Source of the DNA: Naganishia liquefaciens
Lineage: Eukaryota > Basidiomycota > Tremellomycetes > Filobasidiales > Filobasidiaceae
Reading direction: 5' to 3'
DNA length: 64,000 bases
Assembly (NCBI GenBank): GCA_013423385.1
Contig: BLZA01000002.1
Coordinates: forward strand, 393,669-457,668
Of the stretch, positions 33,659 through 64,000 are shown piece after piece. A program made the translations under genes and the position numbers. Each line of letters begins with the position of its first letter. Positions within the stretch are counted from its first letter, which is position 1. The notes beneath the pieces are model-generated. The model had not been told where the DNA came from, made no database searches, and saw only the letters and a program-made list of their open reading frames with translations.

Positions 33659-33676
33659 TAAAACAGCATCAACAAG

Positions 33677-33779: not shown

Positions 33780-33854
33780 GTCCTTTTTGCACTTCCGACA
33801 CCAGCAAACTGGGCCCTTCCAGGCTCAGAGTTCGTGTTAAAACAGCATCAACAA

Positions 33855-33957
33855 GCCTGATTAGCACAGTGGTAGTGCGTGTCTTTCCTACTTCAATGGT
33901 TTCACAACCCATTGCGGGGACAAGGACAAGGTCGTGGGTTCGATCCCCACATTGGGT
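33855..33957 (+). tRNA. tRNA-like gene, copy 2
   Basis: Essentially the same sequence as copy 1, in the second unit of the tandem duplication, with the same cloverleaf, intron and weak acceptor stem. Confidence 0.45.
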
Positions 33958-39196: not shown

Positions 39197-39230
39197 AATT
39201 GGGGCCCGGTCTGGGATTTTAGGATCACTC
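39197..39230 (+). promoter_or_regulatory. putative primer-binding region of the LTR element
   Basis: AATTGGGGCCCGGTCTGGG follows the left LTR directly, the expected place for minus-strand DNA priming. I could not match it confidently to a specific tRNA 3' end. Confidence 0.4.
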
Positions 39231-39380
39231 CTATACGCCTTGCCACCTAGACGTCCGTCGACGTCTTGCCTCTTCTAATTTCTGCCGCCACCTCAAAACC
39301 GCTGGACGCAGCGTCAGGTCATCTTATTGACCTGCATACTGACAATCAAAACTCTACAGACAGAGTTCGTGAATTCACAC

Positions 39381-39475
39381 GTGCCTAGCCACAACTCCGG
39401 TGCCTAGCCACAACTCCAGTGCCTAGTCATACCTCCAGTGCTTCGCCACACCTCTAGTGCCTCGCCACACCTTCA
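39381..39475. repeat. 19-bp tandem repeat in the retrotransposon leader
   Basis: Five imperfect units of GTGCCTAGCCACAACTCCA lie between the 5' LTR and the first gag codons. Confidence 0.85.
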
Positions 39476-39692
39476 ACCTCACTTCCCCCCAAGCGCTTAA
39501 GAAATCATCAGTCCTCCATCGGACACATCCTAGGACGAAGAGCGTAGCTCTCTTCGAATCAGCTAGCGTAGCGTAGCTTGATTCAGATCTGGTACAGATC
39601 AGTTGGTAAATCCAATCGCGGTAGCTTCGAACAAACCCGAACGTGGTACCCCAACACCAAAACAGTAAACCTCACTGTTCAATCCATAGTGT

Positions 39693-40607
39693 ATGGATCA
39701 AAGTCTTCAACAAGGACGCGACCAACCTTCACCGATACAAGTAGACAAGGTACCTGTTGAAGTAAACACTCAAACCGAAGAGCTCTCCATCTTCGTAACG
39801 CACACTGTCCAAGTCACAGTCACAACCTATGCCGATGGCTCTAAGAAACAGACCCGCTATCACCACACAAACGCCCGAGTCACCCTTGACGGAGACGATG
39901 TCACAGACTCATACCAGGAACCGATCTAACTCGCTTCCTTCTCTGTCCACACGAGACATGGTCAACCCTTTTCTCGAAAGGGACGAACGACCCGGCGCTC
40001 CACTACCTTCGACTCCAGTAGCTAGACACACCGAAGCCGGCCAAGCAGCTGATCGTGTTACTTATCAAGATGTCCATCGCAATACGGTACATCCTCTTCC
40101 GACCGATCCTCTGCACCACGTCGATGATCATCCAGAGACATCTATTGACACTCAACGAGGTCTCGAGAACCTGCTGGAACTCACCAACAGGATTCGCGAA
40201 TTGGAAGCGAATCTGCTTAAGATGCAAAAAGAGCGAGACAGGACTCAAGAGCCTTCGCAAACCCTTAACGCTGAATCTTATCGATCGCGAGGATTCCGAG
40301 AAGGGACATTCGCTTCCAACTCCACATACACAAACGAGCACCCCGAAGCAAGATCAAACCTTCGGATCTCCCGAAGTTCTACGGAAGAGATAACGAGGAC
40401 ATTGACGAATGGATCGAGAAAGTCTCGGCCATCTTCACCTACTCGGGAGCAAAAGATGTCGAACTACTTCGCATCCTGCCTCTCCTACTTCAGGGAAACG
40501 CTTCTGAATGGTTCACCACCCTCGGCGACGAAGGGCGAGCCAGTCTACTCACCTGGCCTGCCTGGAAAGCAGCGCTTAGGAACGGCTTCTATCTGCCCGA
40601 TCATGAG
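39693..40607 (+). CDS. gag: gag region of the LTR element, split over frames
   Basis: Coding-like sequence is spread over three segments. A frame from 39693 ends at a stop at 39929 (containing VQVTVTTYADGSKKQTRYHH). A second frame, open from 39829 to 40611, looks coding until about 40345 (a coiled-coil-like stretch, LLELTNRIRELEANLLKMQK). From about 40345 the capsid-like part continues in the frame of pol (PKFYGRDNEDIDEWIEKVS, then GNASEWFTTLGDEG). The shift at about 40345 corresponds to one base. Since the LTRs are identical, the breaks are recent, programmed, or sequence errors. Confidence 0.6.
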
Positions 40608-43600
40608 ATGACGAAGCGAATGCTCTGCCGCAATAGAGTTCTCAAAAAGACTGAGAGCTTTGGCGACTATTTTCAAGCACGGCGCGCTCTTCAGCGTTAC
40701 GTCTATCCATACGGGACTTCTCACAAGATCCTCATCAAAGACATCATGGAAGGTATTCCAGCACACCTCCATCCGATCATTCGAGCAAACAGCACGGAAG
40801 TTCGAAACATCGAAGACTTCCGTCGCGTTCTCATCGACCTTGAACCCGGTATCAGGGACGTGAAGGGCTTCGCCCCTCACACTAACCGAACGACTACACA
40901 CATGCGAAGTAGTCAGGTCAACAACGCCAGCACGTTGCACGCAAAGGACAACAGGACGAACTCTCAATCTCGGAGAGAAAACAAAGGGTCTCCTAAAACA
41001 CCATGCAGATGTGGTGCGATGCATTGGTACGCAGATTGTCCACACAAACGAAAGACAGCGGAAGTCAATCAAGCACAGAAAGCTCCGCCTGCTACCTTCC
41101 CCAACAACATTCCCATCGGGCAACAAGGAAAATGGAAACCTTGGAGCCACAATACGAAAGAAGCCAAGGCGACTGAGATTAACACGGTACAAGTGCAATC
41201 GCGAAGGAATCCTAAAAGGCAATCCAGAGCACGGATTCTCGATGCTCCGGCCACCAAGCCGACCGAGAATACTGATACCCTCGAGAAGACGAAACCGAGG
41301 ATCACTCCGACATTTGCTCTTGCCAGATTTGATGCGAAAGGGATATGTCACCCGATCTGCATCGACACAGGATCATCCATCTCCTGCATTGACGCCGACT
41401 ACGCTAGAAGGTATCTACCTGAGACCAAAGTTACTCCTACGTCAAATCTACGTCTTATGGGCGTCGGTACCAACATGACGTCGGGATCTTTAACAACAAC
41501 GCTCTCTTTCGTCACCACCAATCCCGAGAAGGACTATGAAGTGAGAGTCACTTTGTACATCGTACCTCGGCTCAACACCAAGATTCTACTAGGAAACGAT
41601 TACCTCGTTCCTCTGAACCCGACCATCAATTTCGAGGAAAATTGGATGAAATTCGCTGAGAACCCTCTCAGAATCATGATCACCAATCGTCGAGTCTCCC
41701 TGGAGCCGCAAGAAGCGCGGACAGCCCGAACTCGACAGGTATTCACGGTCCAGCCAGGACACCAGGCTACCATCCCTGTGCTCCTGTACCCCGAAGTCGA
41801 AGCTGAAATGTACTGCATCGAAGCTTCACAGCCTCTCAAGGACGTCTACGTCGCCCGATCGGTGGCCCATACAGACTCCAACAACCATTTCGCCATGGTA
41901 ACGAATTTTGGCAAAAACGCTGTCAAAATCCCCACAGGTACACTCCTTAGTGGATATGCGCCGGTCGAAGACGCCCTCGGCAAAATCGCCGACGTGAACA
42001 ATATCTGCTTGGCAGAAGAGCTCGACCCAACCTTCGAGGACGATATTAAAAGTCTCGATATCAACCCTGATCTCCGAGAAGATCAGAAGGAGGAATTTCG
42101 GAACGTGATTCGACGACAACACGCCGCTTTCGCGTACGGAACTCGCAAACTCGGCAGAACAGATCTGGCCGTCATGAAGATCGAGACAGGCAATGCTGCT
42201 CCGATCTCTCAACCTCCTTATCATGCGTCCCCTGCTGGAAGAAAGATAATCGATGAGACTCTTGCCGAGCTTATTGCCGAAGATGTGATCGAGGAATCTG
42301 ATTCCCCTTGGGCATCTCCAGCAATCTTAGTTCACCAGAAAGGGAAAGACCGGTTTTGTATCGACTTTCGCAAAGTCAACGAAGTCACTAAGGCCGATCA
42401 GTATCCAATTCCCCGAATAGATGACATCTTATCTCAATTCTCCGGCAAGACCTACTTCACTACCTTCGATGCTAACAAGGGATTCCACCAGATCGAGATC
42501 GACGTCAAAGATCGCGAGAAGACGGCCTTCCGAACACACCGAGGGTTACACCAATACAAACGCATGCCATTCGGTCTCAAGTCTGGACCTGGCATCTTCC
42601 AGCGCCTCCTGGATAAGATCCTTGGTCGCTACAAGTGGCAAATCGCCCTTGTCTACATTGACGATATCATAATCTACAGCAAGACATTCGAGGATCACAT
42701 TAGGGATGTCGAAACCATCCTCCGCCTAGTCGGAAAGTCAGGGATCACGCTTTCTCCAAAGAAGTGCCATCTGGGCTATCAATCTCTCACGGCACTAGGC
42801 CACACCATCAGCAACTTAGGCATCGGGACGGCTGACGGGACCGTCAGAGCCGTTACCGAATTTCCGAAGCCAACGAATAAAAAGGAGCTGCAGCGCTTCC
42901 TGGGACTTTGCGTCTACTACCGACGCTTTGTGAAAGACTTCTCGAAAATCGCACTTCCCCTCTACCGTCTGACCAAGGACGACGTCAAATATGTCTGGTC
43001 AGACGAATGTCAGCTCGCTTTCGAAAAGCTCAAAGAGAAGCTCACGACAGCTCCCACGCTGGCACACCCTGACTATGAACGCCCTTTCTTCCTCTACACC
43101 GATGCCTCAAACACGGGCTTAGGCGCAGTGCTAGCTCAGAACGACTTGGAGGGAAAGGAACATCCGATTGTTTACTTGTCTCGCACTCTTACACCAGCTG
43201 AGGCCAACTACACGATCACTGAGCTAGAGTGTCTCGCGATCGTCTGGTCCGTTCGCAAACTGCACGCTTACCTGGATGGCGTTAAGTTCACCTTGATCAC
43301 TGACCATTCCGCTCTACAATGGCTGTTCGACTTCAAAGGCAGCAATCGAAGACTCGTGAGATGGTCTATGGAGCTGCAGCCTTACCGAGAATGGATGACG
43401 ATCAAATACCGAGAAGGACGGGTACACCTAAACGCCGACCCGCTTTCTAGAGCACCTATCGCCGAGTGCAACTCCATCACCGTCATCGACACCCCACGGG
43501 ATTTTGTCGAATCTCTGATCGAAGGCTATCCAAACGATCCCTATTTTGGGAAGATCCTGCAGGCTCTCGACTCTCCTGTCCGACCAAGGGAGTACAACCG

Positions 43601-45065
43601 TTTTGGACTAAGCGTTGACCGTTTGATCACCTACGAGGACCCCTCGGATGATCATCTGAGGATTTGTGTGCCAGCGGGTACCGCCGACAGCAAACTCAGA
43701 CTCAACCTGCTTCACGACTTCCACGATTGTCCCATGTCGGGTCATCTTGGCATGACCCGTACTCACAATCTTCTGGCCTCTCATTACTACTGGCCTGGTC
43801 TCTCGAGAGATGTGAAGGATTACGTTAGGTCCTGCTCCATTTGTCAAAGGAACAAGACCAGTCCAAAAACGTACGGTCCTCACCAGCCTTTAGATGTACC
43901 TCCACAAAGATGGCACACGCTTACTATGGATTTCGCTGGACCTTTTGTCCCTTCTGGCGAAGGCAAGTGGGACATGGTAATGCTGATCATCGACAAGTTG
44001 ACCAAACGCTGCCATCTCGTACCTGCCAAGAGTACCGACACTGCCGCGAATACTGCCAGGAGATTCTTCAACTCCATCGTCCGCCTCCACGGACTCCCCT
44101 CCGTGATCATCTCGGACAGAGATGCCAAATTTACCTCTCACTTCTGGAGAACACTTTTCGAACGATACGGCACCAAGCTTGCCCTCTCAACCTCTTACCA
44201 TCCTCAAACTGACGGACAATCCGAGCGAATGGTTCGCACGGTCAAAGAAATGCTCCGTTCAGTCATCAATTACAAACAAGACGATTGGGTGGAAAAATTG
44301 TCTTCCATCGAGTTCGCGTATAACAACTCCGTACACCCATCCACAAGTATGACTCCTTTCGAGCTTGACTTGGGATACCATCCTAGAGGGATGCACTCTT
44401 TTCTGCCCGAAACCATGGTAGAAGTGCAGTCCACTACCGACTTCATCGAGAACATGAGATTCACTCAAACAGCTGCACAAGAGCATCTCGAAAAGACTCG
44501 CTTGCTGCAGGCTGAGCAAGTCAACAAGGGAAGACCTAAACCTACAACGTATTCCGTCGGAGATCTCGTCATGCTTAGCACGAGATACATCCAGCCACCC
44601 TTCATCAGGGGTACCGGAAGTAAGAAGCTCAAGGCAAAATACGTAGGACCGTTTCCCATCGTCCGCAAAATCAGCTCTACCTCATACGAGTTGGATCTGC
44701 CTGCAAATGTTTATGCTCATCCAGTGGTAAACTTGGAATACTTGAAGAAGTATCATCCCACACCAGAACGTTTCTCTGCGCGAGAAGCTCCTCCTCCACC
44801 TCCTATCGAAAGTGGAGAAGGCGAGGATCTGGAATATGAAGTTGATCACATCAAAGACCACCGCAAGTCGAAACAACATGGCATGCAATACCTCGTGTCG
44901 TGGCTGAATTATCCGCCCGAGGAAGACAGCTGGGAGCCTGCTGAAAACCTTACAGGAGCCCAAGACGCCATTCGCGAGTACTGGAAAAAAGAAGAGGGAC
45001 GCACTCCTCAGCCGCTTCCTCTCAACGCTCGTAGTGCACGACTGCAGGCGAGAAATGCCGCTTAA
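40608..45065 (+). CDS. pol: gag (C-terminal part)-pol polyprotein with chromodomain
   Basis: A 1485-codon frame. Residues 1-90 complete the gag domain. A zinc knuckle CRCGAMHWYADC lies near residue 133 and the aspartic protease motif CIDTGSS near 253. The reverse transcriptase has FDANKGFHQIEI and the catalytic YIDDIIIYS near 683. RNase H has LYTDAS, ITELECLAIV and ITDHSALQWL. Integrase has an HHCC zinc domain near 1036-1080 (GHLGMTRTHN, CSICQRNK) and a DDE core from MDFAGPF (about 1107), with ISDRDAKFTSHFW and YHPQTDGQSERM. The C-terminus carries a chromodomain (EYEVDHIKDHRKSKQHGMQY...SWLNYPPEEDSWEPAENL). The chromodomain places it in the chromovirus branch of Ty3/gypsy and suggests chromatin-directed integration. 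The frame is uninterrupted and all catalytic motifs are present. Confidence 0.96.
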   Translation: MTKRMLCRNRVLKKTESFGDYFQARRALQRYVYPYGTSHKILIKDIMEGIPAHLHPIIRANSTEVRNIEDFRRVLIDLEPGIRDVKGFAPHTNRTTTHMRSSQVNNASTLHAKDNRTNSQSRRENKGSPKTPCRCGAMHWYADCPHKRKTAEVNQAQKAPPATFPNNIPIGQQGKWKPWSHNTKEAKATEINTVQVQSRRNPKRQSRARILDAPATKPTENTDTLEKTKPRITPTFALARFDAKGICHPICIDTGSSISCIDADYARRYLPETKVTPTSNLRLMGVGTNMTSGSLTTTLSFVTTNPEKDYEVRVTLYIVPRLNTKILLGNDYLVPLNPTINFEENWMKFAENPLRIMITNRRVSLEPQEARTARTRQVFTVQPGHQATIPVLLYPEVEAEMYCIEASQPLKDVYVARSVAHTDSNNHFAMVTNFGKNAVKIPTGTLLSGYAPVEDALGKIADVNNICLAEELDPTFEDDIKSLDINPDLREDQKEEFRNVIRRQHAAFAYGTRKLGRTDLAVMKIETGNAAPISQPPYHASPAGRKIIDETLAELIAEDVIEESDSPWASPAILVHQKGKDRFCIDFRKVNEVTKADQYPIPRIDDILSQFSGKTYFTTFDANKGFHQIEIDVKDREKTAFRTHRGLHQYKRMPFGLKSGPGIFQRLLDKILGRYKWQIALVYIDDIIIYSKTFEDHIRDVETILRLVGKSGITLSPKKCHLGYQSLTALGHTISNLGIGTADGTVRAVTEFPKPTNKKELQRFLGLCVYYRRFVKDFSKIALPLYRLTKDDVKYVWSDECQLAFEKLKEKLTTAPTLAHPDYERPFFLYTDASNTGLGAVLAQNDLEGKEHPIVYLSRTLTPAEANYTITELECLAIVWSVRKLHAYLDGVKFTLITDHSALQWLFDFKGSNRRLVRWSMELQPYREWMTIKYREGRVHLNADPLSRAPIAECNSITVIDTPRDFVESLIEGYPNDPYFGKILQALDSPVRPREYNRFGLSVDRLITYEDPSDDHLRICVPAGTADSKLRLNLLHDFHDCPMSGHLGMTRTHNLLASHYYWPGLSRDVKDYVRSCSICQRNKTSPKTYGPHQPLDVPPQRWHTLTMDFAGPFVPSGEGKWDMVMLIIDKLTKRCHLVPAKSTDTAANTARRFFNSIVRLHGLPSVIISDRDAKFTSHFWRTLFERYGTKLALSTSYHPQTDGQSERMVRTVKEMLRSVINYKQDDWVEKLSSIEFAYNNSVHPSTSMTPFELDLGYHPRGMHSFLPETMVEVQSTTDFIENMRFTQTAAQEHLEKTRLLQAEQVNKGRPKPTTYSVGDLVMLSTRYIQPPFIRGTGSKKLKAKYVGPFPIVRKISSTSYELDLPANVYAHPVVNLEYLKKYHPTPERFSAREAPPPPPIESGEGEDLEYEVDHIKDHRKSKQHGMQYLVSWLNYPPEEDSWEPAENLTGAQDAIREYWKKEEGRTPQPLPLNARSARLQARNAA

Positions 45066-45504
45066 CCCTGCCTTACAGCTGACCTTGTGTTGATATCCAA
45101 CAAAGCACAAGAAGTCTTAGATCTAAGACACCAGATCCGCGAGTAACAAAGCTCTCAAGATCTTATCTTATCCTTATCATATCATCCCTAATAATGTCTC
45201 TGAGACATCAGCGCGCAGGGAGAATGTCCTTCAACCAATTCACAAAATAAACAGAGATTACATCATACCAAACGAGCCAGCTCTCGCCCGTTTTTTCAAC
45301 CTCGATCGCTTCTGTCTCACCGGTGAGATTCGAAGCAGCGAGACTCGAAACGTCGCACTCAGAAACACCGTCAGCAACCCCTCTTGAGCTGACGTATGGC
45401 TCGGAAACTGACAATGAGACGTCAGCAGCTTGGCTAGAGGCCTTATCTGGACCGCTGAATGATATAAGGCCTGCCGATTTCGGGAGGAATGACTGTGGGA
45501 TGCC

Positions 45505-46812
45505 GTGGAGAATGCACTATCAATTATTGTTCTGCCAAATCGCTTCCATATGCTGCAAGAAGCCCTTCGATTCTACCCATGGGATCACCTGGACGTCGTG
45601 AGAGTCCTACCCGAGTCGCACTGGTTCATACAGAAGTTTGCCTATCTCAGCCGCACACCCACTCGTGCCGAGCTGCTCAAGCCCACCGCGCCTTTCGGTC
45701 TGCTCCACGATGCAGATTACGACGAAGAGATGCAACTTCAAGCATTCCTGCAAAAACGAACAGCCCGCCGAGCGGCCCAGGAGGCCGAAAACGATGAAAT
45801 GATTGCCTTTCGTGGTCAGCCTGAAGAAGAAGGCCCTGCAGCCCATCACGAAGCAAAAATAGAGTCGGAAATTGCGCAAGAAGCGATTCGAACTCGCGCA
45901 GACGTGAACTATGTCGTCGCAGACGAAGAGCACAACCACTTCACCAAAGGATCTGTCAATGACTTTCAAGAACAACAGTCATCTGGTTGGGGAGCTGCGA
46001 GCGGTTCTCTCTACACGAACCAACAAGACAATCCGTCGGGCTGGAACGCCCAACCGGGCCAACATGTCGCCATGTCAGGCGACGCTCCACAAGACCTGCC
46101 CGAGTGCACCTCCTCTGAAACGCCTTTCGATCCAGCTGCGCCTTTCACAGCTGAGGAGGCTGCTGCCGCCCTCGCACATGCCGCTTATCTTAGGTCAGAA
46201 AGCGTACAGCGGTACGTCAACTCAACTGATAATGTCGGTCCCATGGACTTTTCCAACGACGCCACCGACCCAATTCCCGCTTCTCCTGCTCCCGATATTC
46301 CGAACCCACATGATGGAATATGCATGCCTTCCACGCCTGCAGAACTCGAACTATTGATACAACGCTTGCGTCACGAGTTGTTGCAAGAGTGGTTGGATGA
46401 CGAATTGGCAGATTTAGGCGTCCATGAGCGTGTACCCGTACACGATTTCGACATCGCTCGTATTAACGAAGCCGCTCGAGTCAATCAACGGGTGGGAAAC
46501 TTGCCCTTTATCACAAAGGACAATATCGTCCGGCACGACTGGTCGCGACGCGCCGATTGCATTTACACGATAGAATTTGCCGGCCGCCGAATTCACGGAC
46601 CTGCCGAGGAGCTTACTCATCAGGTCTCCGGACTTCGCCGCGCACTCTGGGAATACTGGGCCAGGCGTCCTCGCGTGCGCGTCGCAAATATTCGTGCCTA
46701 CATGCGCACTTACAACGCGTTCGATTATTATCGGGCTGTCATGTGGCACCATCTCCCCACTCACAAGTGGATCGCTTTGTGGATGGCTAGACGATCCTCG
46801 AGGCGAGGATAG
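45505..46812 (+). CDS. extra ORF (ORF3) between pol and the 3' LTR
   Basis: A 435-codon sense frame inside the retrotransposon, ending two bases before the purine tract. It is acidic and Ala/Glu-rich in the middle (about residues 80-290). The C-terminal 140 residues look globular (RHDWSRRADCIYTIEFAGRR, HQVSGLRRALWEYWARR). I see no signal peptide, membrane segment or similarity to gag, pol or envelope proteins. No ATG opens the frame at the very start. The upstream frame at 45323-45500 (SETDNETSAAWLEALSGPLN) seems to belong to the same protein, one frame apart, so a spliced or frameshifted start near 45495 is likely. Most fungal chromoviruses lack an ORF here. Confidence 0.65.
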   Translation: MENALSIIVLPNRFHMLQEALRFYPWDHLDVVRVLPESHWFIQKFAYLSRTPTRAELLKPTAPFGLLHDADYDEEMQLQAFLQKRTARRAAQEAENDEMIAFRGQPEEEGPAAHHEAKIESEIAQEAIRTRADVNYVVADEEHNHFTKGSVNDFQEQQSSGWGAASGSLYTNQQDNPSGWNAQPGQHVAMSGDAPQDLPECTSSETPFDPAAPFTAEEAAAALAHAAYLRSESVQRYVNSTDNVGPMDFSNDATDPIPASPAPDIPNPHDGICMPSTPAELELLIQRLRHELLQEWLDDELADLGVHERVPVHDFDIARINEAARVNQRVGNLPFITKDNIVRHDWSRRADCIYTIEFAGRRIHGPAEELTHQVSGLRRALWEYWARRPRVRVANIRAYMRTYNAFDYYRAVMWHHLPTHKWIALWMARRSSRRG

Positions 46813-46828
46813 ATAAGGGGGGAGGTAT
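46813..46828 (+). promoter_or_regulatory. polypurine tract of the LTR element
   Basis: ATAAGGGGGGAGGTAT lies directly before the right LTR, the expected plus-strand primer site. Confidence 0.85.
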
Positions 46829-47301
46829 TGTAGAGAGCGTGCTGATCCCAGGTGCGACGCGCTGGGAATGACTGCGACGCGCTGATATTCACTGCGACGC
46901 GCTGGGGCTCGCCGCGGCGCGCTGATACTCACCCAAATGATTGTGTTAGCCCTTGTAACTTTGACTAGTATACCTTTGCCTCTTAAAATAGCTATATAAG
47001 AAAAACAGATCCAGACTGACTTGTAATCTTATAGTTGCGGGAAAAAATTAGATCTTATTGTTTGACGCGCAAGTTCAATACTTTGACTCAGGCTTTGCAA
47101 ACCTTACGTCATCAGCATTGAAGCTCAAGCATAAGTTAGGCAGTTGCTAAGACAGGTGAGCATTACACAACCACTGCGTGGTCCCACTACTTGGCACGTT
47201 AGGATCCGGCTTGTACTTGAACTTAGTCATTTGACTTGTCAGCTATCGATCAAAAGGTCGAGCTGCAGTCTGAACTGAGCGAGGACGGTTGGCCCTTAAC
47301 A
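46829..47301 (+). repeat. 3' LTR (473 bp)
   Basis: Identical by eye to the 5' LTR at an offset of 8105 bp. It ends TTAACA and is followed by the target duplication GATTG (47302-47306). Confidence 0.96.
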
Positions 47302-53554: not shown

Positions 53555-56500
53555 TAGGCCGATAGGTCGCTAATGGTAGCGGAAAGGGCAGATCCTTGCG
53601 ACAAGTCATCGAGGGATGCATCGCCGATGGACATTGGCGAAGACAACATGACTTCATCATCGGAAATAACGTCGAGCGGGTCTTCCAAGGTTGCGTCAAG
53701 CTCGGCTGATTCATCATGGGCAAAATGATCTCCCCAATTAAGGGCGGCCCGTTGAATGGTAATCTGGTCCTTGATGCTCGCCGCAACGAGTCGATAGTGG
53801 CACCTCGTAGAGCACTCTCCTCTATCTTGCGGTGTACGACTATAGCCGCCCTTGTGAATGGGTCCGCGATGTCGTACTCAAGGGCGCCGGCTATTTTGGC
53901 CATCCGCTGAGAAAGACGTGACGATTAACGAGTGTTTGCGACAAAAGGACAAACCTACCGCAGTCTTCACAACATTTTCGGGATCGTCCGCCTTGAAAAG
54001 TCCGTAATGGAAACGTTGTGGGATAAAGTCAACGTGATGTTTCGAGATGTGTCGAATGAGATGGGCTGGGGTTTCGTTCCCGAGGCACCGTACTTGAAAC
54101 CGTCACACCAGGGACACGTATAGACTGGTGAAAGCGAGGCATAATGCTCTTTCGGGGTGACCGATTTGAAGGCCAGCGGGAAAATGGGTCGAGGTCGGTC
54201 AGCTGGTAGCCGGGCCGTTTTCGTTAGATATCGCATGAGGCGGTTTTTGTTTGAGTGAAATTAGGTCCTTTGGTGGTGTTCCAACGCTTTTGAATTTGGA
54301 TACACGTAGGATCTATTCGCTACGCTGACCGTCTCTGCAAGGAAGAAGGGAAGAAAGGGCTCAGTAGGATGATCAGCCTGGCGCCGAAGGAACTACATAC
54401 CGTCACCATCACAAAGCTCACACCTGTAGCCTTGTTGATCGGGCAGATTACATAAACTAAGGAACCATACCAACTTTTCTGGAGCAAGCTCCGAGAAAGT
54501 CGAACGCAGCGATTGCCTGCCGAACACAGGGCCTGTAATGCAAAGCGGGACATGGGAACATGAGACTCTGAAGACTACTTCCCGGTATGAATATGAATAT
54601 ACCTCGAGCAAATTGTTTCCCGGGCCTTTCTTCGGGTTCCTCCAACATTTCGAGATGACTGTCCGACGGTAGCTCAGTCTGGCCCAGTATCCATTCTCTG
54701 GTCATCCCTTCGGGGAGTCCGCTCTCGCCAACTTCTTCATTTCCCTCGGCGAACTACTCATGGCGATTTGAATCAGTTCTGGATGGTATGGGGAAACGGA
54801 CACAAGCTGACCCACCTCTTCCAGCTGGCTGAGATCTTCTTCTTGTGCATCATCACCATGCCCTTCGTCGTCATCGTTCAGCTCCAAGACCTCTCCGAGA
54901 CGCACTGGAGGCTCGGCACAGCGAATGGTAACAGGCCGAGCGTTTGCGGCAAGGCTCAAATCCTTTTTTTCCGAGGCCTGGAGTTGATCCCTCTTAGTAA
55001 GTAGGCTTGCAACCCCAGATACGATCGGTTCAGCGCTCTCCAGTACTGTAAACGCCCGGCGGATGATTTCGCTGTGTGCAGGTGAGACTTGCGCCAGCTC
55101 TTCCTTGTTCTGGAGAACTGCTTCAATGGACAGCCTCTGGACTGCAGCATCCGTCTCCCGGTACCTTTCTTCCTTGATGAGTTGGCGGATCACTGACAGT
55201 CGGCGAGAGTATTCTTCTCGAGATAGTAAATATAGGTCAAGTCGCTGATCGCTTTTCAGCTGAAGTTGTCGAAACTGGTGTGCATGCGGTTAGAAATGAC
55301 AACAGGTGGCAATGTCTGCAGCTCACCTGTTTACTTCGTAGCCATTCATCAGAATCCAGGTTTAAAGGACCAAGCTGAAAGAAGGCGGAATTCAGTTATG
55401 TCCTGATAACGAGCCGATACCTGATAACTCACCCTTTTGGACGCCATCCAGTCGTCGGAGTTGTGTTCGTTACAGAATTTCAAGAGCCTGATATCTTCAG
55501 CCTGATATCTTCCTGGAGTACGAGTAGCTCGGGATCTGTTCGCACGGCTTGCGCCAATTGCTCGGTTGGTGACATCTTTGGCACCTCTATCTCAGAGAAA
55601 CCTTTAGTGTAATACCGAAGATTCGAGACTCGATACTGACTAGTCCTACTCGTATGCAGTTTCGTCGGATCTGATGGCTTCTCGGGCCGGATCTCATTGG
55701 TATACAACGCTGCAGCCAGGTTGAAGCTGTATTCGGATTGGTCGTAGACTGAAACGGCGGCGTCCGATCGAGGGGTGTGTCCTCAGTAAGGCTACATCGA
55801 AGCGGGGTCTCATATCAGTCGAGGTCGCATGTCTAGACACATATCTCAAGTGCTCACCCTTGCTTTGTTAACTCCAACGGCTTCGATCAGAGTCGTGGCT
55901 GTACCGCGACGAATGCAATACCAAGATATCGTTGCGCCGGGACGAACCATGTCGCATAGAGCCGCCATGGTCTTCAACTGTTCATTGAATAGATGTGCAT
56001 TGGCCGGCTTGTCTGAGATGCCTCCTCCTTGGGGTTTTCCGGCTCGAAAAACAGGTTCCTTGACTCGATGGTCCGGAATGGTAAGTTTCAGACGTGTATC
56101 GGACCATATTTCAGCTGGAGTCGCGTCTTCCCATACCTTAAGTCGGTGGAGGTGAGAGACGATCCAACATCCGAAATCCAGCATCATATTGCCGCGATTG
56201 CCGATGGTCTGGATGCTGTAGACGACTAGTTTCCCCTGTCCGGAGAGATAGCCCTTAAAGTCTCGAATGGAGACCTCGATATCGAATCCGACCATCTTCC
56301 CGTCGACGAACGCTCGCGTAATCTGAAGATCGCCAAGGGCGAGGTATGTGTTGTAATCGTTTGTTTGGAAGAGGGATGAGGGTCGGGCGCCAGAATAAAA
56401 AGTAAGGAGGACCGCCGCGCCGAATTGGACTCCCAGATGCGTCGATCTCATTGCATTGATCGCCTTGTCGACGACAAGACGACACTCTTGCTCGTACATC

Positions 56501-56890
56501 GTGACGCGCAGTTGCCGATGGGCGGGGAGTCCATACATGTGCTGTAGTGTACGACATTGCTGAAGCGAGTTCATCCTTCAAGAGTGAGCGAATGGTCCGA
56601 GATTAGGCTGCCGCAGAATGGACCCACCCTCAATAAGGCCTTGCGCAAGTCTTTGATCTCCGAGCTACTCAGGCCGACATGGCTGCACATCGAGATGAAA
56701 TCGACTACGATGTCCCGCAGCGACATGTACTGTATCGGAACACGCTGCTCCTTCGGAAGGTGTTTGTGTCGGTGGATGGAGACCCGGACTTTGTAGCATA
56801 TGTAGTGTCAAGACACTCTGGGTAAAGCAAACGGGTATGAGAGGCCGAAATCACGAGAGAGTAAGATATGGCTCACCTTCCAAGTGGGAT
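53555..56890 (-). pseudogene. tyrosine recombinase (DUF3435/Crypton-like) gene, decayed and 5'-truncated
   Basis: A many-exon gene whose core matches a tyrosine recombinase. The box I Arg is in FYSGARPSSL, the box II region is SWYCIRRGTATTL (Tyr where His is usual), then GHTPRSD and a candidate nucleophile Tyr in VYDQSEYSF. N-terminal exons encode IHRHKHLPKEQ and LRDIVVDFISMCSHVGLSS. The C-terminal part has finger-like segments (YRCELCDGD; YTCPWCDGF with HLIRHISKHH) and an acidic end (DEVMLSSPMSIGDASLDD), with a stop at 53555. A 14-bp tandem duplication (AGCCTGATATCTTC at 55485 and 55499) breaks the frame. Exon joins near 55850 and 53800 also look out of phase. The 5' end is lost at the TTAGGGG beginning at 56892. 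DUF3435-type recombinases move large DNA elements in ascomycetes (Starships), and Cryptons are related. Confidence 0.65.
55485..55512. repeat. 14-bp tandem duplication in the recombinase gene
   Basis: AGCCTGATATCTTC occurs twice in direct tandem. On the minus strand, ignoring one copy lets the frame run from LQEDIRL into LKFCNEHNSDDWMASKR, which then leads to a normal intron. With both copies a stop follows within a few codons. Confidence 0.85.
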
Positions 56891-56891
56891 C

Positions 56892-56898
56892 TTAGGGG
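56892..56898 (+). repeat. telomeric unit TTAGGGG at recombinase/retroelement junction
   Basis: A single TTAGGGG separates recombinase-gene sequence (GGGATC) from the 3' end of the first telomeric retrotransposon. Confidence 0.85.
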
Positions 56899-57503
56899 TG
56901 TATCAGATACCAACATTGAACTAACGTATACATTCAAAGACTATTCTACCAAGATCAAAAACTCCAATTCCTTCGGTATTCGCACCCATCCAAGTTCAAG
57001 ATTCTCCTCTCTCCTTTATCATCCGCCTACAGAGCGAACGATCTCGCACGTGCCTTCAATAGAATCAAAGACAGTTGTTGACACAAGGTCGAAAAGGCTG
57101 CAGGAGGCATCGTGTCGTGCCACAACTTCATCACCTACACCGTCCCCTTATCCATCATCCCTCCGACGGTAAAGACGAGGGGCATGAATGGAATGCCATT
57201 TCGAGGTAGTCGTCGGATCTTGTCATTGGCCTTGAAATCGAGAAACTTAGCGATCAAGGCGTAGCATCGTTCCGCCGGGTCTTCCGGAGTCAAGTTGGGA
57301 TGAATCCGGGTATTGACCGAATCTCGAGTGGACAGAGAGACTACCGTCACATCGTATTCGTGCCGTGCAATTCCAGATGTCGGGTTGCCGGTGACTTTCG
57401 ACGGGCTGTTCCGCCAATCAGCGGCTCAACAACTAACACCTAAAGGCCACACCTTGAATCTTGCTGAGGGCGGAGGCGATGGCTCGCTTCACCTGCTCAT
57501 GTC
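56899..57503 (-). mobile_element. telomeric non-LTR retrotransposon, element 1 (5'-truncated stub)
   Basis: About 605 bp. It keeps the 3' UTR (plus-strand start TGTATCAGATACC) and the last part of the ORF (VVSLSTRDSVNTR, RRLPRNGIPFMPLVFTVGG). Its frame stops early where element 2 has Glu (GTVEVMKLW): a GAG-to-TAG change. The 5' side ends abruptly in the HEQVKR codons against TTAGGGG. Nonfunctional copy of the same subfamily as element 2. Confidence 0.9.
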
Positions 57504-57524
57504 TTAGGGGTTAGGGGTTAGGGG
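57504..57524 (+). repeat. telomeric tract, three TTAGGGG units
   Basis: Three perfect 7-bp units between elements 1 and 2. Confidence 0.97.
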
Positions 57525-60099
57525 TGTATCAGATACCAGCATTGAACTAACGTATACATTCAAAGACTAATCTACCAAGAGCAAAAGTTCCTCCTCGTCG
57601 AGAACCGAAACTCATCACTGCTGAGGTATCTCCTCCTTTATCCGTCTACAGCACAAACGACCTTGCTCGAGCCTTCAGCAGAATCAGGGACAACTGCTGA
57701 CAAAGCGTCGAGAAGGCCGCGAGAGGCATCGTATCCTGCCACAACTTCATTACCTCTACGGTACCCTTGTCCATCATCCCTCCGACCGTGAACACAAGCG
57801 GGGTAAAGGGAATTCCGTTGCGAGGTAGTCGACGAATTTTGTCCTCCGCCTTCGAGTCGAGGAATTTGGCGATCAGAGCATAACATCGTGCTGCTGGATC
57901 CTCAGGGAGCAGATTGGGAGGGATTCTAGTGTTGACCGAATCATGTGTCGAAAGAGACACCACCGTGACGTCGTATTCGTGACGCGTCACACCTGACATC
58001 AGATTTCCGGTGATTCTGATGTCGTTCCGTCTAGCTGTTCCGCCAATCAGGGGCTCCACGACCACGGCCACACCCTGAATTTTGCTGAGGGCGGAGGCGA
58101 TCGCTCGCTTGACCTGTTCATGTCGGGCCGTACTCCATCTGTGTCGGTGTACACAAACTTCCGCGTGGCCGACTTCGAGGGTTTGCAGACCGCATTGGTT
58201 GCAGACTGCGCCGGGTCCCGGAATCAGGGTCTTGACATGTAAGCCGGTCGAGACTTGGAAGTCGGTAAGTTGCAATTGAGCGTGAAAAGGAACAATGGAC
58301 AGCCATCTCTTTCCCAAACCTGTAGCCGACTCTAGTACTGTTTTGATTTGTTGGTCGGTCAGTTTGAGAAAGAGTTGCTTTCGTGTTTCTTCGAACGCCT
58401 TGTTGCAACGCTCTCTTTGTCGAACAATGATAGGTTGTCCGTCATCATTGAATTCTTGATACAGTTCGGGGCCTGGGCCAAGCAAGGGTTCGAGCAACTG
58501 ATCCGCAACGTCTTGTGCCGCGCTGTAAGCCAAAGGACCACAGGTCTCATATGATAAGAGACCAAGGCCGCCTAATCTGACTGGCAGGGAATAGAGAATG
58601 TCGGTCGTTTGTGACTGGAACTCTGTGAGGTTGTCAGTATTGGCACCACGAATGAGGTTGGCGGTATCCCAGATTGATCGGTCTAAGCGTTTCCAGAGAT
58701 CTTCTAGTCCATCGCCAAGAAGGCACCTTTGAAGGTGTCGGAGTTCTTGTTGTAAGCACTGGCGCAGCAACAGCAGGCTGTGCTGATGAGGCAATCCTGC
58801 CAACCTCGTCATCTTCTCCTCGAGCTTGACGATCTTGGCCTCGAGGAACTTTCGTCGTGCCTCGGCCGAGCCAATGCAGGATCCCAAAATTTCCATCCCA
58901 GAAGATTTGATGTCCGCCAGCGTTACGATTGATGTCTTTGCGTGGTTCAGTTGTAATGAAACATTATCGGTGCTGAAGAAGTTGAAGATCTCTTGAAGGG
59001 TATCCGAGGACTTGCTGAGGACGTAGATATCGTCCAAATAGGCCAAGGCTACGGCGTCGTGTCCGAGGGCGGTGGTGAGCTCGTCCAGCATGGGCCGAAT
59101 TCCGACTGAGAAAAGCAAAGGGCCCAGGGGGTCGCCTTGTCGGACTCCTTGGCTTGACTGAATGACTTCGGGAGCATCTTCCAAACCACCGAAGACGAGA
59201 TCAGACGGCTCGTTGTAAGCCCATTTGGCGACCTTCCATAGTCCAGGGGCGTATTTGTTGATGGAGTCGGCCATTTCTCGCCGGCTGAGGGTGTTGAAGG
59301 CGTTTCGAAAGTCGAGCGACGCGACGTGGGTAAAATCCTCGTCGGAGATGGTACCGTCCATCGCCCGTTGTACCGCTCGAATTAAAGGTTCGACTCCGCT
59401 TCGAGTGCCCACCCCGAATTGGCAAGGGGATAGGCTGTCGGGTCGGAATGAGTGTCGGAGGATGGCCTTTGTGCACAGTCGGTAGATGAGTTCGCCAACT
59501 GCAATTGGGCGAACTCCGCCATCAGGTTTGTCCAACGCGATGAGCCGGGACGTGCAAAGAAAGCTACGTCCTGGAGCGGTTCCGGCCAAGAGCATGGTGA
59601 CCAAAGTGGTGAGCATTTTCTTGACCGGTTCCGATCGCATGGCGATTTTGAGAATAGGCACCGTCCATCCTGAGATGCCAGGGGCGGTGTCGTGTCGAAA
59701 CGACTGAAATGCCTTGACGATGTCTTCGGTCGAGGGCGGCATGTTGGCGAATTGAGGTCCAGCATTGTCGCCAAAGGGATTCTCTTCTCCTTGAGGGTGT
59801 TTATCTCTCAAGGACTCGAGCACTTCTGGTGTTTGCCCTGCGACTGCACCGTTGTCGTCGAGGATTCTTGAGGCGTTTCCAAGTCTACCCAATTCTACTT
59901 GGTGCTGAACGGAAGGAGCTTTCCTTTCCCCCCGGCGATTGAAGTCGGGGAGTTTGGGAAAGTCTATGTCCGGGTAGAGTCCGAGGCGGTAGATACTGTC
60001 GGAGGAAGCGCCCAGGCAGACTTTCGGGAGACATAAAAAGTCGAAAATCGCACGATCATTTGGGTTGGCGGAAAACTGTAAGGCCAACCTTTCGGCTGC
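57525..60099 (-). mobile_element. telomeric non-LTR retrotransposon, element 2 (5'-truncated, 2.6 kb)
   Basis: Begins at its 3' end with the same TGTATCAGATACC as element 1. It carries an ORF of about 813 codons open right up to the 5' junction, and ends against GGGG-TTAGGGG repeats. Compared with element 3 it lacks about 240 N-terminal codons, typical of incomplete reverse transcription. No poly(A) tail is visible at the 3' end. Confidence 0.92.
57646..60087 (-). CDS. reverse transcriptase with C-terminal restriction-like endonuclease (N-terminally truncated)
   Basis: An 813-codon frame. The RT palm includes RLIALDKPDGGVRPIAVGEL, VASLDFRNAFNTL, GVRQGDPLGPLLFS and the catalytic AYLDDIYVLS. 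A thumb/linker region follows. The C-terminal part has the zinc motif CNQCGLQTLEVGHAEVC and a restriction-enzyme-like nuclease region with RRNDIRI and EYDVTVVSL, as in the R2/CRE/NeSL/Cnl1-type elements that use target-primed reverse transcription. The first Met is simply the first after the truncation; the frame is open to the junction. The N-terminal DNA-binding zinc fingers of element 3 are missing, so the copy is probably inactive on its own. Confidence 0.92.
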   Translation of the reverse strand: MALQFSANPNDRAIFDFLCLPKVCLGASSDSIYRLGLYPDIDFPKLPDFNRRGERKAPSVQHQVELGRLGNASRILDDNGAVAGQTPEVLESLRDKHPQGEENPFGDNAGPQFANMPPSTEDIVKAFQSFRHDTAPGISGWTVPILKIAMRSEPVKKMLTTLVTMLLAGTAPGRSFLCTSRLIALDKPDGGVRPIAVGELIYRLCTKAILRHSFRPDSLSPCQFGVGTRSGVEPLIRAVQRAMDGTISDEDFTHVASLDFRNAFNTLSRREMADSINKYAPGLWKVAKWAYNEPSDLVFGGLEDAPEVIQSSQGVRQGDPLGPLLFSVGIRPMLDELTTALGHDAVALAYLDDIYVLSKSSDTLQEIFNFFSTDNVSLQLNHAKTSIVTLADIKSSGMEILGSCIGSAEARRKFLEAKIVKLEEKMTRLAGLPHQHSLLLLRQCLQQELRHLQRCLLGDGLEDLWKRLDRSIWDTANLIRGANTDNLTEFQSQTTDILYSLPVRLGGLGLLSYETCGPLAYSAAQDVADQLLEPLLGPGPELYQEFNDDGQPIIVRQRERCNKAFEETRKQLFLKLTDQQIKTVLESATGLGKRWLSIVPFHAQLQLTDFQVSTGLHVKTLIPGPGAVCNQCGLQTLEVGHAEVCVHRHRWSTARHEQVKRAIASALSKIQGVAVVVEPLIGGTARRNDIRITGNLMSGVTRHEYDVTVVSLSTHDSVNTRIPPNLLPEDPAARCYALIAKFLDSKAEDKIRRLPRNGIPFTPLVFTVGGMMDKGTVEVMKLWQDTMPLAAFSTLCQQLSLILLKARARSFVL

Positions 60100-60136
60100 G
60101 GGGTTAGGGGTTAGGGGTTAGGGGTTATGGGTTAGG
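60100..60136 (+). repeat. telomeric tract, degenerate TTAGGGG units
   Basis: GGGG, then three TTAGGGG, one TTATGGG and a partial TTAGG, directly followed by the 3' end of element 3 (TACTAGCATGAGG). Confidence 0.93.
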
Positions 60137-60276
60137 TACTAGCATGAGGAAATACATATACAATTGAGTAGTGAGTCTACGGAGTAATAACTAAGGAAGT
60201 ACGCCTTGACTTGAGAACCAGCTGGTCTACGCTTGCTATCATGACCTGTTATCAGGCACTTCGATCCCAGAGATCT

Positions 60277-63200
60277 TTACGCAACGAATGACTTTGCCCG
60301 CGCCCGTAGCAGGATAAGTGATAACTGTTGGCACATTGCCGAGAACGCTGAGGGCGGCAGTACTCCCTGCCACAACCTGAGACAAGCGACTGTACCTTTG
60401 TCCATGCATCCTCCCACGCTGAAGACCAGCGGGTCGAACGCCATCCTTCTCCTTCCTTCTGGCAATCGGTTTCGCTTGTTGGTCGCCGTTTGCTCCAAGA
60501 ATCGTCCAATAAGGGCGTGACCACGCTCCGCCGGGTTGGTGGGTAATAAGTTTGGCGGTAGGCGGGTCTCGACCGAGTCCCGGCTGTTCAACGAAACAAC
60601 GGTGACATCGTACTCGTGGCTGGCGAGACCGGAGGCTTCCGATCCGATCACTCGGATGTCGTTCCTTCGGTTTGTCTCACCGATATGAGGCTCGACTGTG
60701 ACAGTGGCTCCCTCGATTCTGCTGAGCGTGGATGCGATCGCTCTCTTGACCTGTTCGTGCCTCGCAATGTTCCATCGTTTGCGGTGCACGCACACGTCGG
60801 CGTGGCCGATCTCGTTGAGGGCATGGCACTGGGCACAAGCTGAATCTGAGCCAGGATGCAACGTCCGTGCGTGCAAGCCCGCGGAAACTTCAAAGTCGGT
60901 GAGCCGCAAGGATTGGTAGAACGGAACAACAAACAACCACTTCTTTCCCAAACCCGAGGCCGATTCGATGATTGTTTTGATTTGATGGCCGTCGAGTTCG
61001 CAAAGGAGGGTATTGCGCTGTTCTTCGAATACTTTGTTGCAGCGGATCCTTTGTGGCGCAATGGAGTCGGGTTCGTCCGGATTTGAGAGAGTCGGCGGTT
61101 GTGCCGGAGGGCCCAAAAGTGGGACAAGCAGATTGTCGGAGATGTCTCTGGCGGCTGAGAAAGCCAGAGGTGCACAGATCTGATGCGAAAGCAACCCGAG
61201 GCCTCCCAATCGCACTGGAAGTGCAAGAAGCTGATTGTCGAGTCGTGATGTGTCCACCCCAGGGATCTCTTTTGCGCTGCGCATTCGGAGAGCCGCGTCC
61301 CAAATAATTTGATCCAGTCGTTTCCACAGGTCTGTTAGATCATCGCTGATCAGACATCTCTGCAAATGTCGTAAGTCTTGCTGGAGGCGCTGCCTCAGTA
61401 AGAGTAGAGCATGCTGATGGGGCAATCCGACGAGTCGACCGATCTTGAGCTCGAGGTCTTGAATCTTGGTCTTGAGGAATTCCGATCTTGCTTCCTTCGG
61501 GCCGAGACATGTCCCGAGCATTTTGAGGCCGTTTGCCTTGATGTCCTCGATCGACGTCGTAAACGATTTGACGACGTTGAGCTTGAGCGAACACTCATTG
61601 GCTTCAAAGAACTCTTTGACATCGCTCAGGGTGTCAGCGGAGGTGCTGAGAATGTACACGTCGTCCAGATAGGCCATGACGATGCAATCCGGACCGAGAG
61701 CATTCGACAAGTTGTCGATGATGGGTCTCACTCCGATCGAGAAGAAAAGCGGACCCAAAGGATCTCCCTGTCGAACTCCTTGACTGGAGAGGATCACCTC
61801 GGGCGGCCCTTGAATACCTCCCAGAATGAGGTCCGAAGGGTTGTCGTATGCCCATTTGGCAAGACGATATAGGCCACCAGCGTGTCGCCGAATAGATGTA
61901 GCCAGGTCGCGCCGATCCAAGGTGTTGAAAGCGTTTGAGAAGTCGAGAGACGTCACATGAGTGAAGTCCTTCCCCTCGATGGATCCGTCGATGGCTCGTT
62001 GCACTGCTCGGATTAAGGGCTCGACGCCACCTCGAGTGCCCACCCCGAATTGAGAAGGCGATAAGCAGTCTGGCTTGAAGGAGCACCGCAGAATGGCCTT
62101 GGTGCAAAGTCGGTAGATGAGTTCTCCGACGGCGATAGGTCGGACTCCTCCGTCTGGTTTGTCGAGAGCGATGAGCCGGGAAGAGCAAAGGAAATTTCTT
62201 CCCGGAGCAGTACCGGCCAAAAGCATGCCAGCCAACATGGTGAGCATCTTTTTGACCGCGTCTGATCGCATGGCGACTTTAAGCAGGGGCACCGTCCACC
62301 CGGAGATTCCAGGAGCGGTGTCGTGCTTGAAGGTTCGAAAGGAATCCAAAAGCTGCTCTTGAGTAGGAGGCTTAGGAGTTCCTTGCCCGACCAAGCTGCC
62401 AAATGGGAAGAGGGGTCCCACTGGGTGCTTTTGTCGGAGTTCACGAACCGTGTCGAAAGAGGCGGAGGCAAAAGAATTCTCCTCTCCGAGTATTCGCGCC
62501 GCGTTTCCGAGTCGTCCCAGTTCCACTTGTTTCTCGGCAGATGGGTTGGAACGAAACGATTCACCGGATGGACGAGAGATTTGCGGAGCAGAGACGTCGG
62601 GGTACTTGGCCAGGCGGGCAGTACTTGCTGTACCCTGGCCTGGTGCGAGGCCCATCTTCGGCAAACACAAGAATTCGAAGATGGCCCTTTCTGAGGATGC
62701 ATCGGCCAAGAACCGATTCGCGACTCGTTCTGCTGCTTGAGCAAAGCTGGTGGTGATCGGAGGTGGCAAGGGACGATACGTTGTCGGTAAGGACGCCAAA
62801 GCGGTAAAGGCATTCTTCATTTCTTCGAATCCAAAGTTGGCTCGGAGTCGGCTTGGAAGACATTCGTCAGAAAGATCCGTTCCTACGTCCATTGGCGCAG
62901 GAGGTAGTAGGGCCGGTCCACCAGTCAGGACTTGCGTTTCGAAGAGAGGGGACGATGTTCGGCTAAAATCCCCGGGTGAAGGGTCGAGAGAAGCCGGATA
63001 GGGATCCTCCACCACATCCATTGACTGTTCGCTGTGCTCTCGCGGACGACGTAAACCTTGACCGAAGATCCGTGCATTCACGTCGTCATCGGAGTGCGAC
63101 AACACCCCAGTTGGACTATTCATTGGGGACGGCCTTCCGGGGCGTCGTGGCTGTCGTACTTCATTGGCTGTCGGTAGTCGAGACGCTGTTTGGTTCTGGA

Positions 63201-63462
63201 GAAATCGCTCAAGACCAACACAACCTGTCTTTCCTTGATGCTGTCGGAGCCCTTTCTTGCTGACTGCAGGTGCACCGCATTCACAGACCACAATACCGCT
63301 TGTATTGCCGATAAAGTCGTCTGGAGACCAGACCTTTTTTGGATGAGCCCTGCGAACGTGTTCCATGAGATCCCCATAAAACCGAGCAGCTCCTTCCCCG
63401 CCAGAGCATCCAGTGTCTGGGCAGATGCCGCCACCGGATCTTGGTCCTCTTGGTTCCGGCAT
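60277..63462 (-). CDS. non-LTR retrotransposon polyprotein: zinc fingers, reverse transcriptase, restriction-like endonuclease
   Basis: 1061 residues, intact. The N-terminus has a C2H2-like finger (CPDTGCSGG...HVRRAH, residues about 14-40) and a second Cys/His motif (CECGAPAVSKKGLRQHQGK), probably for target DNA binding. A Ser/Pro-rich linker leads to the RT core: LIALDKPDGGVRPIAVGEL, VTSLDFSNAFNTL, GVRQGDPLGPLFFS and the catalytic AYLDDVYILS near residue 595. The C-terminus has CAQCHALNEIGHADVC and a nuclease region with RRNDIRV and EYDVTVVSL. The layout (fingers-RT-zinc-RLE, one ORF) matches site-specific RLE-type elements such as Cnl1. Specificity for telomeric repeats is inferred from the flanks. 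Confidence 0.94.
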   Translation of the reverse strand: MPEPRGPRSGGGICPDTGCSGGEGAARFYGDLMEHVRRAHPKKVWSPDDFIGNTSGIVVCECGAPAVSKKGLRQHQGKTGCVGLERFLQNQTASRLPTANEVRQPRRPGRPSPMNSPTGVLSHSDDDVNARIFGQGLRRPREHSEQSMDVVEDPYPASLDPSPGDFSRTSSPLFETQVLTGGPALLPPAPMDVGTDLSDECLPSRLRANFGFEEMKNAFTALASLPTTYRPLPPPITTSFAQAAERVANRFLADASSERAIFEFLCLPKMGLAPGQGTASTARLAKYPDVSAPQISRPSGESFRSNPSAEKQVELGRLGNAARILGEENSFASASFDTVRELRQKHPVGPLFPFGSLVGQGTPKPPTQEQLLDSFRTFKHDTAPGISGWTVPLLKVAMRSDAVKKMLTMLAGMLLAGTAPGRNFLCSSRLIALDKPDGGVRPIAVGELIYRLCTKAILRCSFKPDCLSPSQFGVGTRGGVEPLIRAVQRAIDGSIEGKDFTHVTSLDFSNAFNTLDRRDLATSIRRHAGGLYRLAKWAYDNPSDLILGGIQGPPEVILSSQGVRQGDPLGPLFFSIGVRPIIDNLSNALGPDCIVMAYLDDVYILSTSADTLSDVKEFFEANECSLKLNVVKSFTTSIEDIKANGLKMLGTCLGPKEARSEFLKTKIQDLELKIGRLVGLPHQHALLLLRQRLQQDLRHLQRCLISDDLTDLWKRLDQIIWDAALRMRSAKEIPGVDTSRLDNQLLALPVRLGGLGLLSHQICAPLAFSAARDISDNLLVPLLGPPAQPPTLSNPDEPDSIAPQRIRCNKVFEEQRNTLLCELDGHQIKTIIESASGLGKKWLFVVPFYQSLRLTDFEVSAGLHARTLHPGSDSACAQCHALNEIGHADVCVHRKRWNIARHEQVKRAIASTLSRIEGATVTVEPHIGETNRRNDIRVIGSEASGLASHEYDVTVVSLNSRDSVETRLPPNLLPTNPAERGHALIGRFLEQTATNKRNRLPEGRRRMAFDPLVFSVGGCMDKGTVACLRLWQGVLPPSAFSAMCQQLSLILLRARAKSFVA

Positions 63463-63949
63463 GGCTCTCCCAATTTTCGCGTTTGAAGCGAACGGGACAA
63501 GAGCACCGATTTTCGCCTTGTTTTCTTTAAATCCGATCTTCGCCTTGTTTGCTTTTCACCTTTAAATCTGAATGACCCAACAGATATTGACACAACACAA
63601 CAATGGGTGCGGTCAAGGTTGAGGTTTTGTCATTGACGGAAGATCGAGTTCGGGAAAGGGAGAAAACAAAAATGATTGTAAGTAAACGATCTTCTGTCAT
63701 TGACAGAAGATGACTTACCCAACAGACAAAAGGATTTTAGTACCAACCCGATCTTCGCCTTGTTTGCTTTTCACCTATGCAGGCTGATAACACAGCGCAA
63801 GGTGACAGGAGAGCGATCAGCCAATGATCTTTTGTCATTGTCAAAAGAAACAAGCTCACCGAAGAATGACAAGATTAATTGATAAAGTCACACTTCTTTG
63901 TGCGAATGTTGTCTTTACCTTTAGAAGACTGATAAAAGTGAAAGAAGGA
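63463..63949 (-). promoter_or_regulatory. 5' UTR of element 3 with repeats and hairpins
   Basis: GATCTTCGCCTTGTTTGCTT occurs at about 63535 and 63751. Three related potential hairpins centred on TGTCATTGAC lie at about 63624-63643, 63688-63712 (ATCTTCTGTCA/TGACAGAAGAT, perfect) and 63826-63847. It is a candidate internal promoter or RNA-structure region. Confidence 0.65.
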
Positions 63950-63996
63950 GGGTTAGGGGGTTAGGGGTTAGGGGGTTAGGGGTTAGGGGTTAGGGG
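63950..63996 (+). repeat. telomeric tract, six TTAGGGG/TTAGGGGG units
   Basis: Units of 7 and 8 bp alternate. The G-rich strand points right, so the chromosome end lies to the right. Confidence 0.97.
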
Positions 63997-64000
63997 TGTA
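63997..64000 (-). mobile_element. first bases of a fourth retrotransposon copy
   Basis: The window ends TTAGGGG-TGTA, and TGTA equals the start of the 3' end (TGTATCAGATACC) of elements 1 and 2. Only four bases are visible, so this is a prediction about what follows. Confidence 0.55.

Follow-up and report, generated by a model that had tools for sequence, protein, structure and literature searches.

Non-LTR retrotransposons (elements without long terminal repeats, LTRs) that target telomere repeats are known from several fungi, and it is against these that we set an array found in the basidiomycete yeast Naganishia liquefaciens. In the window, by which we mean the whole stretch of 64,000 nucleotides analysed here (G000:C1:393669-457668), whose base 64000 coincides with the last position of its contig (457668 of 457668), three such elements and the first bases of a fourth alternate with TTAGGGG tracts (Table 1). 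MoTeR and CNL1 are compared with our elements by published description. MoTeR1 and MoTeR2 of the ascomycete Pyricularia (Magnaporthe) oryzae (PMC7367193) resemble the elements of our basidiomycete host in that an element with reverse transcriptase (RT) and a restriction-like endonuclease lies in telomere repeats with its 5' end outward, in head-to-tail arrays, with truncations capped by new telomeres and with internal relics; the tracts between MoTeRs vary in length from half a repeat unit to more than 20. The 5' end of MoTeR has TTCGGG(TTTGGG)n, whereas here variant repeats stand at the 3' end of one of two families, B.

FoTeR of Fusarium oxysporum (PMC12857005) likewise has an open reading frame (ORF) with RT and restriction-like endonuclease (about 1150-1184 aa), occupies 20.0-95.5% of chromosome ends and, as here, shows asymmetric junctions, 5' tandem repeats and more truncated than full copies; its endonuclease consensus reads RHD...RAD against RHE...RND here. 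CNL1 of Cryptococcus neoformans (PMC12810828), also from a Tremellomycete, is an R2-superfamily element which, like ours, forms subtelomeric arrays with 5'-truncated copies, flanked externally by TAACCCCC-type repeats. The insertion into telomere repeats in the manner of Cnl1, put forward in the original prediction made from the letters of the window, agrees with the architecture published for that element. CNL1 also enters a reporter gene, whereas the 3' ends read here adjoin telomere-type repeats, bar one relic with GGGGG only.

R2 elements share with ours an RT followed by a C-terminal endonuclease, and differ in their target, which is described as rDNA and not TTAGGGG. HeT-A, TART and TAHRE belong to Drosophila, where telomerase is absent, whereas a telomerase domain is present here. 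The endonuclease of the insect elements SART and TRAS is of the apurinic type and stands ahead of the RT, whereas the motif here is restriction-like, as in R2, and C-terminal; because the endonuclease is of another type, SART and TRAS are the weaker parallel, and the likeness to them drawn in the original prediction holds for insertion in telomere repeats and fails for the enzyme. SART and TRAS have two ORFs (PMC4700185).

Since the same array architecture has been published for MoTeR, FoTeR and CNL1, elements of this kind are not new, and what is added here is a rule for how telomere tracts start, the variant repeats at the 3' end of family B and the presence of an element on 34 of 56 contig ends. 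No such elements are described for the Filobasidiales in the titles and abstract openings listed from the open-licence literature on Naganishia telomeres, basidiomycete non-LTR elements and telomere healing. We consider it likely that the two families, A and B, are site-specific R2-like non-LTR retrotransposons inserting in TTAGGGG, with broken ends capped and the next insertion following.

Distribution and anatomy of the two families

A distribution away from TTAGGGG, which would have told against the original prediction, was not what was found: a tblastn search with the frame of element 3 gave 39 candidates, of which 39 were scored, and all 39 have their midpoint within 12.9 kb of a contig end and their 3' end inward, these counts being lower bounds. 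With up to two mismatches allowed, the family A 3' junction, TTAGGGGTGTATCAGATACCA, is matched 44 times (42 near a contig end and outward-pointing), and the family B 3' end has six matches, all near contig ends and outward-pointing; the exact three-unit repeat gives 57 overlapping matches, and 50 of them lie within 15 kb of a contig end and point outward. An element is present on 34 of 56 contig ends (33 together with C13_L) and a tract or an element on 42 of 56, the 56 including one end that reads N and both ends of contig 28, which looks mitochondrial from cox1-like frames read by eye. Altogether 53 3' ends are spread over 33 contig ends, a count which omits two odd junctions on contig C17, and for the right end of C22 the evidence consists of protein matches alone. 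Stacking like that in the window recurs at other ends, 12 contig ends having two or more 3' ends, which supports, for contig ends, the original prediction of end DNA built widely of such elements. The 42 contig ends with a tract or element would correspond to some 21 chromosomes. For Filobasidium floriforme, TTAGGGG telomeres and 19 or more chromosomes are reported (PMC9210288), in a paper whose main text contains no retrotransposition terms. Among named species, a PRP17 fragment on contig 18 finds its best matches in Naganishia friedmannii (73% over 93%) and N. vaughanmartiniae (86% over 55%).

Within the window the array is head-to-tail on the minus strand, with TTAGGGG between its members, and it closes on TGTA, the same 3' end start as in elements 1 and 2; in both respects the original prediction proved correct. 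Its claim of three elements with RT and endonuclease stands for elements 2 and 3 and falls for element 1, which lacks the RT, has its endonuclease domain reduced to the final portion and shows stops in all three frames (tblastn match at C1:450701-451081, with one TAG). The two-unit telomere motif, at up to one mismatch, occurs eight times in the window against a mean of 0.02 in dinucleotide shuffles, while the GC content of elements 2 and 3 is that of the window (0.53). As the contig ends at 64000, whatever array lies beyond is absent from the assembly.

Element 2 has an open frame of 823 aa (57646-60117, minus strand) which extends into the telomere tract, and element 3 one of 1092 aa from stop to stop (60277-63555, minus strand; first ATG codon at 63462); RVT_1 is the sole Pfam entry for either at E up to 1. 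Zinc-finger-like Cys/His motifs were seen by eye in the N-terminal part of the long ORF. At the C-terminus element 3 has C-x2-C-x7-H-x3-C-x9-RHE ... E ... RND ... D, a motif of the restriction-like endonuclease type, which element 2 shares with one extra residue before H; RHE, RND and some of the spacings differ from the published consensus. Among 20 aligned sequences, two of them from the window, C907, C910, H933, R964, D966 and D983 of this motif are invariant, and H918, C922 and E955 are kept in at least 90%. The best PDB sequence matches of the element protein are R2, and for its predicted model (pLDDT 79.9), searched with Foldseek as a whole, the seven best matches are all R2 proteins.

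Families A and B have about 60% protein identity and different 3' untranslated regions (UTRs). Their 3' junctions are nearly invariant, TTAGGGG|TGTATCAG in A and TTAGGGG|TTATGGGTTAGGTAC in B, and all six family B copies carry at the 3' end TTATGGGTTAGG, a degenerate telomere repeat within the element, which, to judge from its letters, could aid annealing of the RNA to its target. The 5' truncations, by contrast with these junctions, vary among copies, the 5' end facing the contig tip. Element 3 has one long ORF and a 5' region shorter than that of copy C27_R, its 5'UTR ending where the latter runs on, so that a full element may have a further ORF upstream. The 5'UTR of the family B element of the window is 89.8% identical over 393 nt to that of C27_R, a copy with an A-type protein; this likeness is closer than that of the coding parts, which suggests that the families have exchanged sequence. 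The 5' region of copy C16_R holds an 84-bp tandem repeat in 5.5 copies. Short palindromes around GATCTTTTGTCATTGTCAAAAG recur in the 5'UTR of element 3 (window 63640-63860) and in that of C27_R. R2 elements are linked to an HDV-like 5' ribozyme, and none was listed by Rfam for the 10-kb array region and four loci with 5'UTR pieces, which gave three weak unrelated rows.

Purifying selection is evident in 19 pairs of diverged A copies, where omega (the ratio of nonsynonymous to synonymous change) is 0.046-0.107 at a synonymous divergence, dS, of 0.97-2.86, omega being rough at dS near or above 1 and comparisons of A with B being mostly saturated; in three close pairs omega is 0.14, 0.17 and 0.42. 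Such low values between diverged A copies argue that these lineages have long been kept functional. In a tree of 72 proteins A and B fall among unnamed homologues, P0002 with 99% identity to element 3 among them, the only named members being from Filobasidium, Tilletia and Aureobasidium.

How the telomere tracts begin

Fifty-five tracts start in readable DNA, and the base in front of them depends on how they start. Where the tract opens with a run of G (33 cases) the preceding base is A in 16, C in 9 and T in 8; where it opens with TTAG (22 cases) it is C in 21, T in one and A in none (binomial test, taking 0.36 as the local background, 7.5e-9; Fisher test of one start class against the other, 3.0e-7). 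A genome-wide scan for H-TTAGGGGTTAGGG gave C 20, T 1 and A 0; a relic on C17 accounts for one of the 20. The rule applies both at truncated elements (C in 6 of 6) and at other DNA (15 of 16). Truncated element bodies and ordinary subtelomeric repeats alike break off at arbitrary points, with TTAGGGG coming next, where other copies continue uninterrupted. By eye, the preceding C is part of the older sequence in seven junctions (j1, j5, j7, j8, j16, j17 and j26), these being the TTAG starts for which the best alignment listed against another copy extends to the final base, so that the C was not added; and since C is absent from the TTAGGGG unit, the rule is not one of microhomology to a telomere seed. 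Herein lies a difference from P. oryzae, where healing uses telomere seeds, 19 of 24 de novo telomeres on a truncated rDNA end having extended seeds of 1-4 nt (PMC7367193), whereas the TTAG starts here follow a base from outside the repeat. Taken from the junction sequences, the C-then-TTAG pattern fits template-directed healing of broken ends, followed by insertion into the new telomere.

The genome has a gene for telomerase, its telomerase RNA-binding domain scoring over the cut-off at C2:542700-543093 and free of stops. The original prediction of a mixed telomerase/retrotransposon chromosome end is thereby borne out as to its two ingredients, elements on 34 of 56 contig ends and telomerase; a role of the elements in maintaining telomeres would go beyond what these show. 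A genome search with CTTAGGGGTTAG, made after the C rule had been seen, returned 21 matches, of which 19 are terminal tracts, one is an internal relic and one lies at C3:1154209. This last (C3:1154209-1154220) is the only other internal CTTAGGGGTTAG, and in the 551 bases around it the longest frame is 95 aa and runs off the piece; as a candidate telomerase RNA template it is a lead at chance level, since the reversed control pattern also gives two matches.

Table 1. Tracts and elements at the right-hand end of the window
Feature	Position	Strand	Remarks
TTAGGGG x1	56892..56898	+	preceded by C; separates non-element DNA from element 1
Element 1, family A	56899..57503	-	605 bp, 5'-truncated remnant; 3' end at 56899
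TTAGGGG x3	57504..57524	+	preceded by C
Element 2, family A	57525..60099	-	5'-truncated; open frame with RT and restriction-like endonuclease; 3' end at 57525
GGGG + TTAGGGG x3	60100..60124	+	followed by element 3's own TTATGGGTTAGG
Element 3, family B	60125..63949	-	RT and endonuclease motif; 3' end carries TTATGGGTTAGG
GGG + six units	63950..63996	+	two units are TTAGGGGG; last tract of the window
TGTA, fourth element, family A	63997..64000	-	opening four bases of its 3' end, where the contig stops

Adjoining the array, an ORF at window 55846-56577 (minus strand) has a sub-threshold match to DUF3435 (E 0.093) and may be a broken tyrosine-recombinase-like gene. Further inward lies a Gypsy-type LTR element (38748-46932), between two copies of one 20-bp tandem repeat, with an ORF at 40275-45065 containing gag, RT, RNase H, integrase and chromodomain; and at 33658-34016 a 179-bp unit stands in perfect tandem duplication, with a tRNA-like sequence, recognised by eye, inside it.

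Competing accounts of array growth

On the reading which we prefer, that of site-specific insertion alternating with the capping of broken ends, the endonuclease would nick the G-rich strand after GGGG, or else the 3' end of the overhang itself would be used, and this 3' end would prime reverse transcription from the 3' end of the RNA (target-primed reverse transcription), so that each element would lie with its 3' end inward. Arrays and subtelomeres would break at arbitrary points, telomerase would cap the broken ends with new TTAGGGG, a G beside its template pairing with the 3' C of the broken end, and the new telomere would take the next element, the repetition of break, cap and insertion yielding an alternating array.

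Several observations weigh against this reading. The nick, the priming and the part of telomerase as healer are steps that we infer, and the CTTAGGGGTTAG search identified no telomerase RNA with a template for the C rule. As to affinity, a further Foldseek comparison, most of whose matches span residues 245-900 only, placed LINE-1 slightly above R2 there, and no relative named MoTeR or CNL1 was returned by the single-protein and 20-sequence-alignment searches. As to position, 14 of 56 contig ends have neither tract nor element, 7 of the 57 overlapping three-unit matches are internal or point inward, and the assembly ends inside arrays, the terminal tract being absent from it at every end read. 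There are, besides, an internal A remnant at C17:1165493, a reversed A junction at C17:1613905, 16.6 kb from the end, and three short A copies on C13 (6100-7660), 6 kb from the tip, one of which has just GGGGG before its 3' end; these C17 and C13 exceptions we read as relics. On C13 a three-unit tract points inward about 1.1 kb further in than the A cluster, and at C17:1165440-1168520 two tracts, one beside a short A remnant, face each other 3 kb apart, deep inside the contig, which could stem from an ancient end-to-end fusion, from a misjoin or from an internal relic.

That arrays grow mainly by recombination (break-induced replication between ends), with little present retrotransposition, is described for MoTeR arrays (PMC7367193) and would accord with near-identical pairs, of which C12_L and C6_L, 98.2% identical in nucleotides, are one. 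We think it rather unlikely as the main process here: no 20-nt flanks are identical among the 55, so copied junctions are not the rule, and selection has preserved long open frames in many of the diverged copies. Unlikely too, in our estimation, is a HeT-A-like extension of ends, in which, with no internal nick, the copying of element RNA would proceed directly from a short telomere's 3' overhang, and telomerase would then cap the 5' end of the element. This concerns the priming step and is compatible with the family assignment; the orientation is as it would require, 5'-truncated copies are capped directly by repeats, and the 41 bounded tracts have only 1-8 units. Yet telomerase is present, the conserved endonuclease motif would be needless to an end-extender, and the assembly may lack long inner tracts, since 10 of 55 tracts stop no more than 5 bases short of a contig tip, the last of the window among them; long tracts may be lost at such tips, and short inner ones are therefore no proof of insertion at short telomeres.

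A more speculative proposal, to which we give little credence, couples healing and retrotransposition, so that two reverse transcriptases would take turns in renewing the chromosome ends: telomerase would heal by way of a template G next to CCCCUAA (C|TTAGGGG), an element would be copied directly onto the telomere of 1-8 units, and the elements would be a working part of the cap. An assembly artefact, repeats having been collapsed or misjoined at contig ends, is suggested by the position of the arrays where assemblies break at repeats, and is most improbable given one polarity in 39 of 39 protein matches, tract flanks of which no two are identical and, from another public contig, a near-identical protein (P0002, ENA; 99% identity, covering 61% of the query). 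A dispersed repeat at assembly breaks was also judged unlikely, as breakage at such a repeat would not give uniform polarity.

The known fungal telomere-targeting elements now extend to Naganishia, where a single genome holds diverged lineages that selection has maintained. From the general notion that broken ends are healed, the junction rule leads to a sharp prediction, namely that the telomerase RNA template contains 5'-CCCCUAAG-3'. Gene-targeting tools have been reported for N. liquefaciens (PMC10684384), and whether the elements are parasites or components of the cap becomes testable through TERT.

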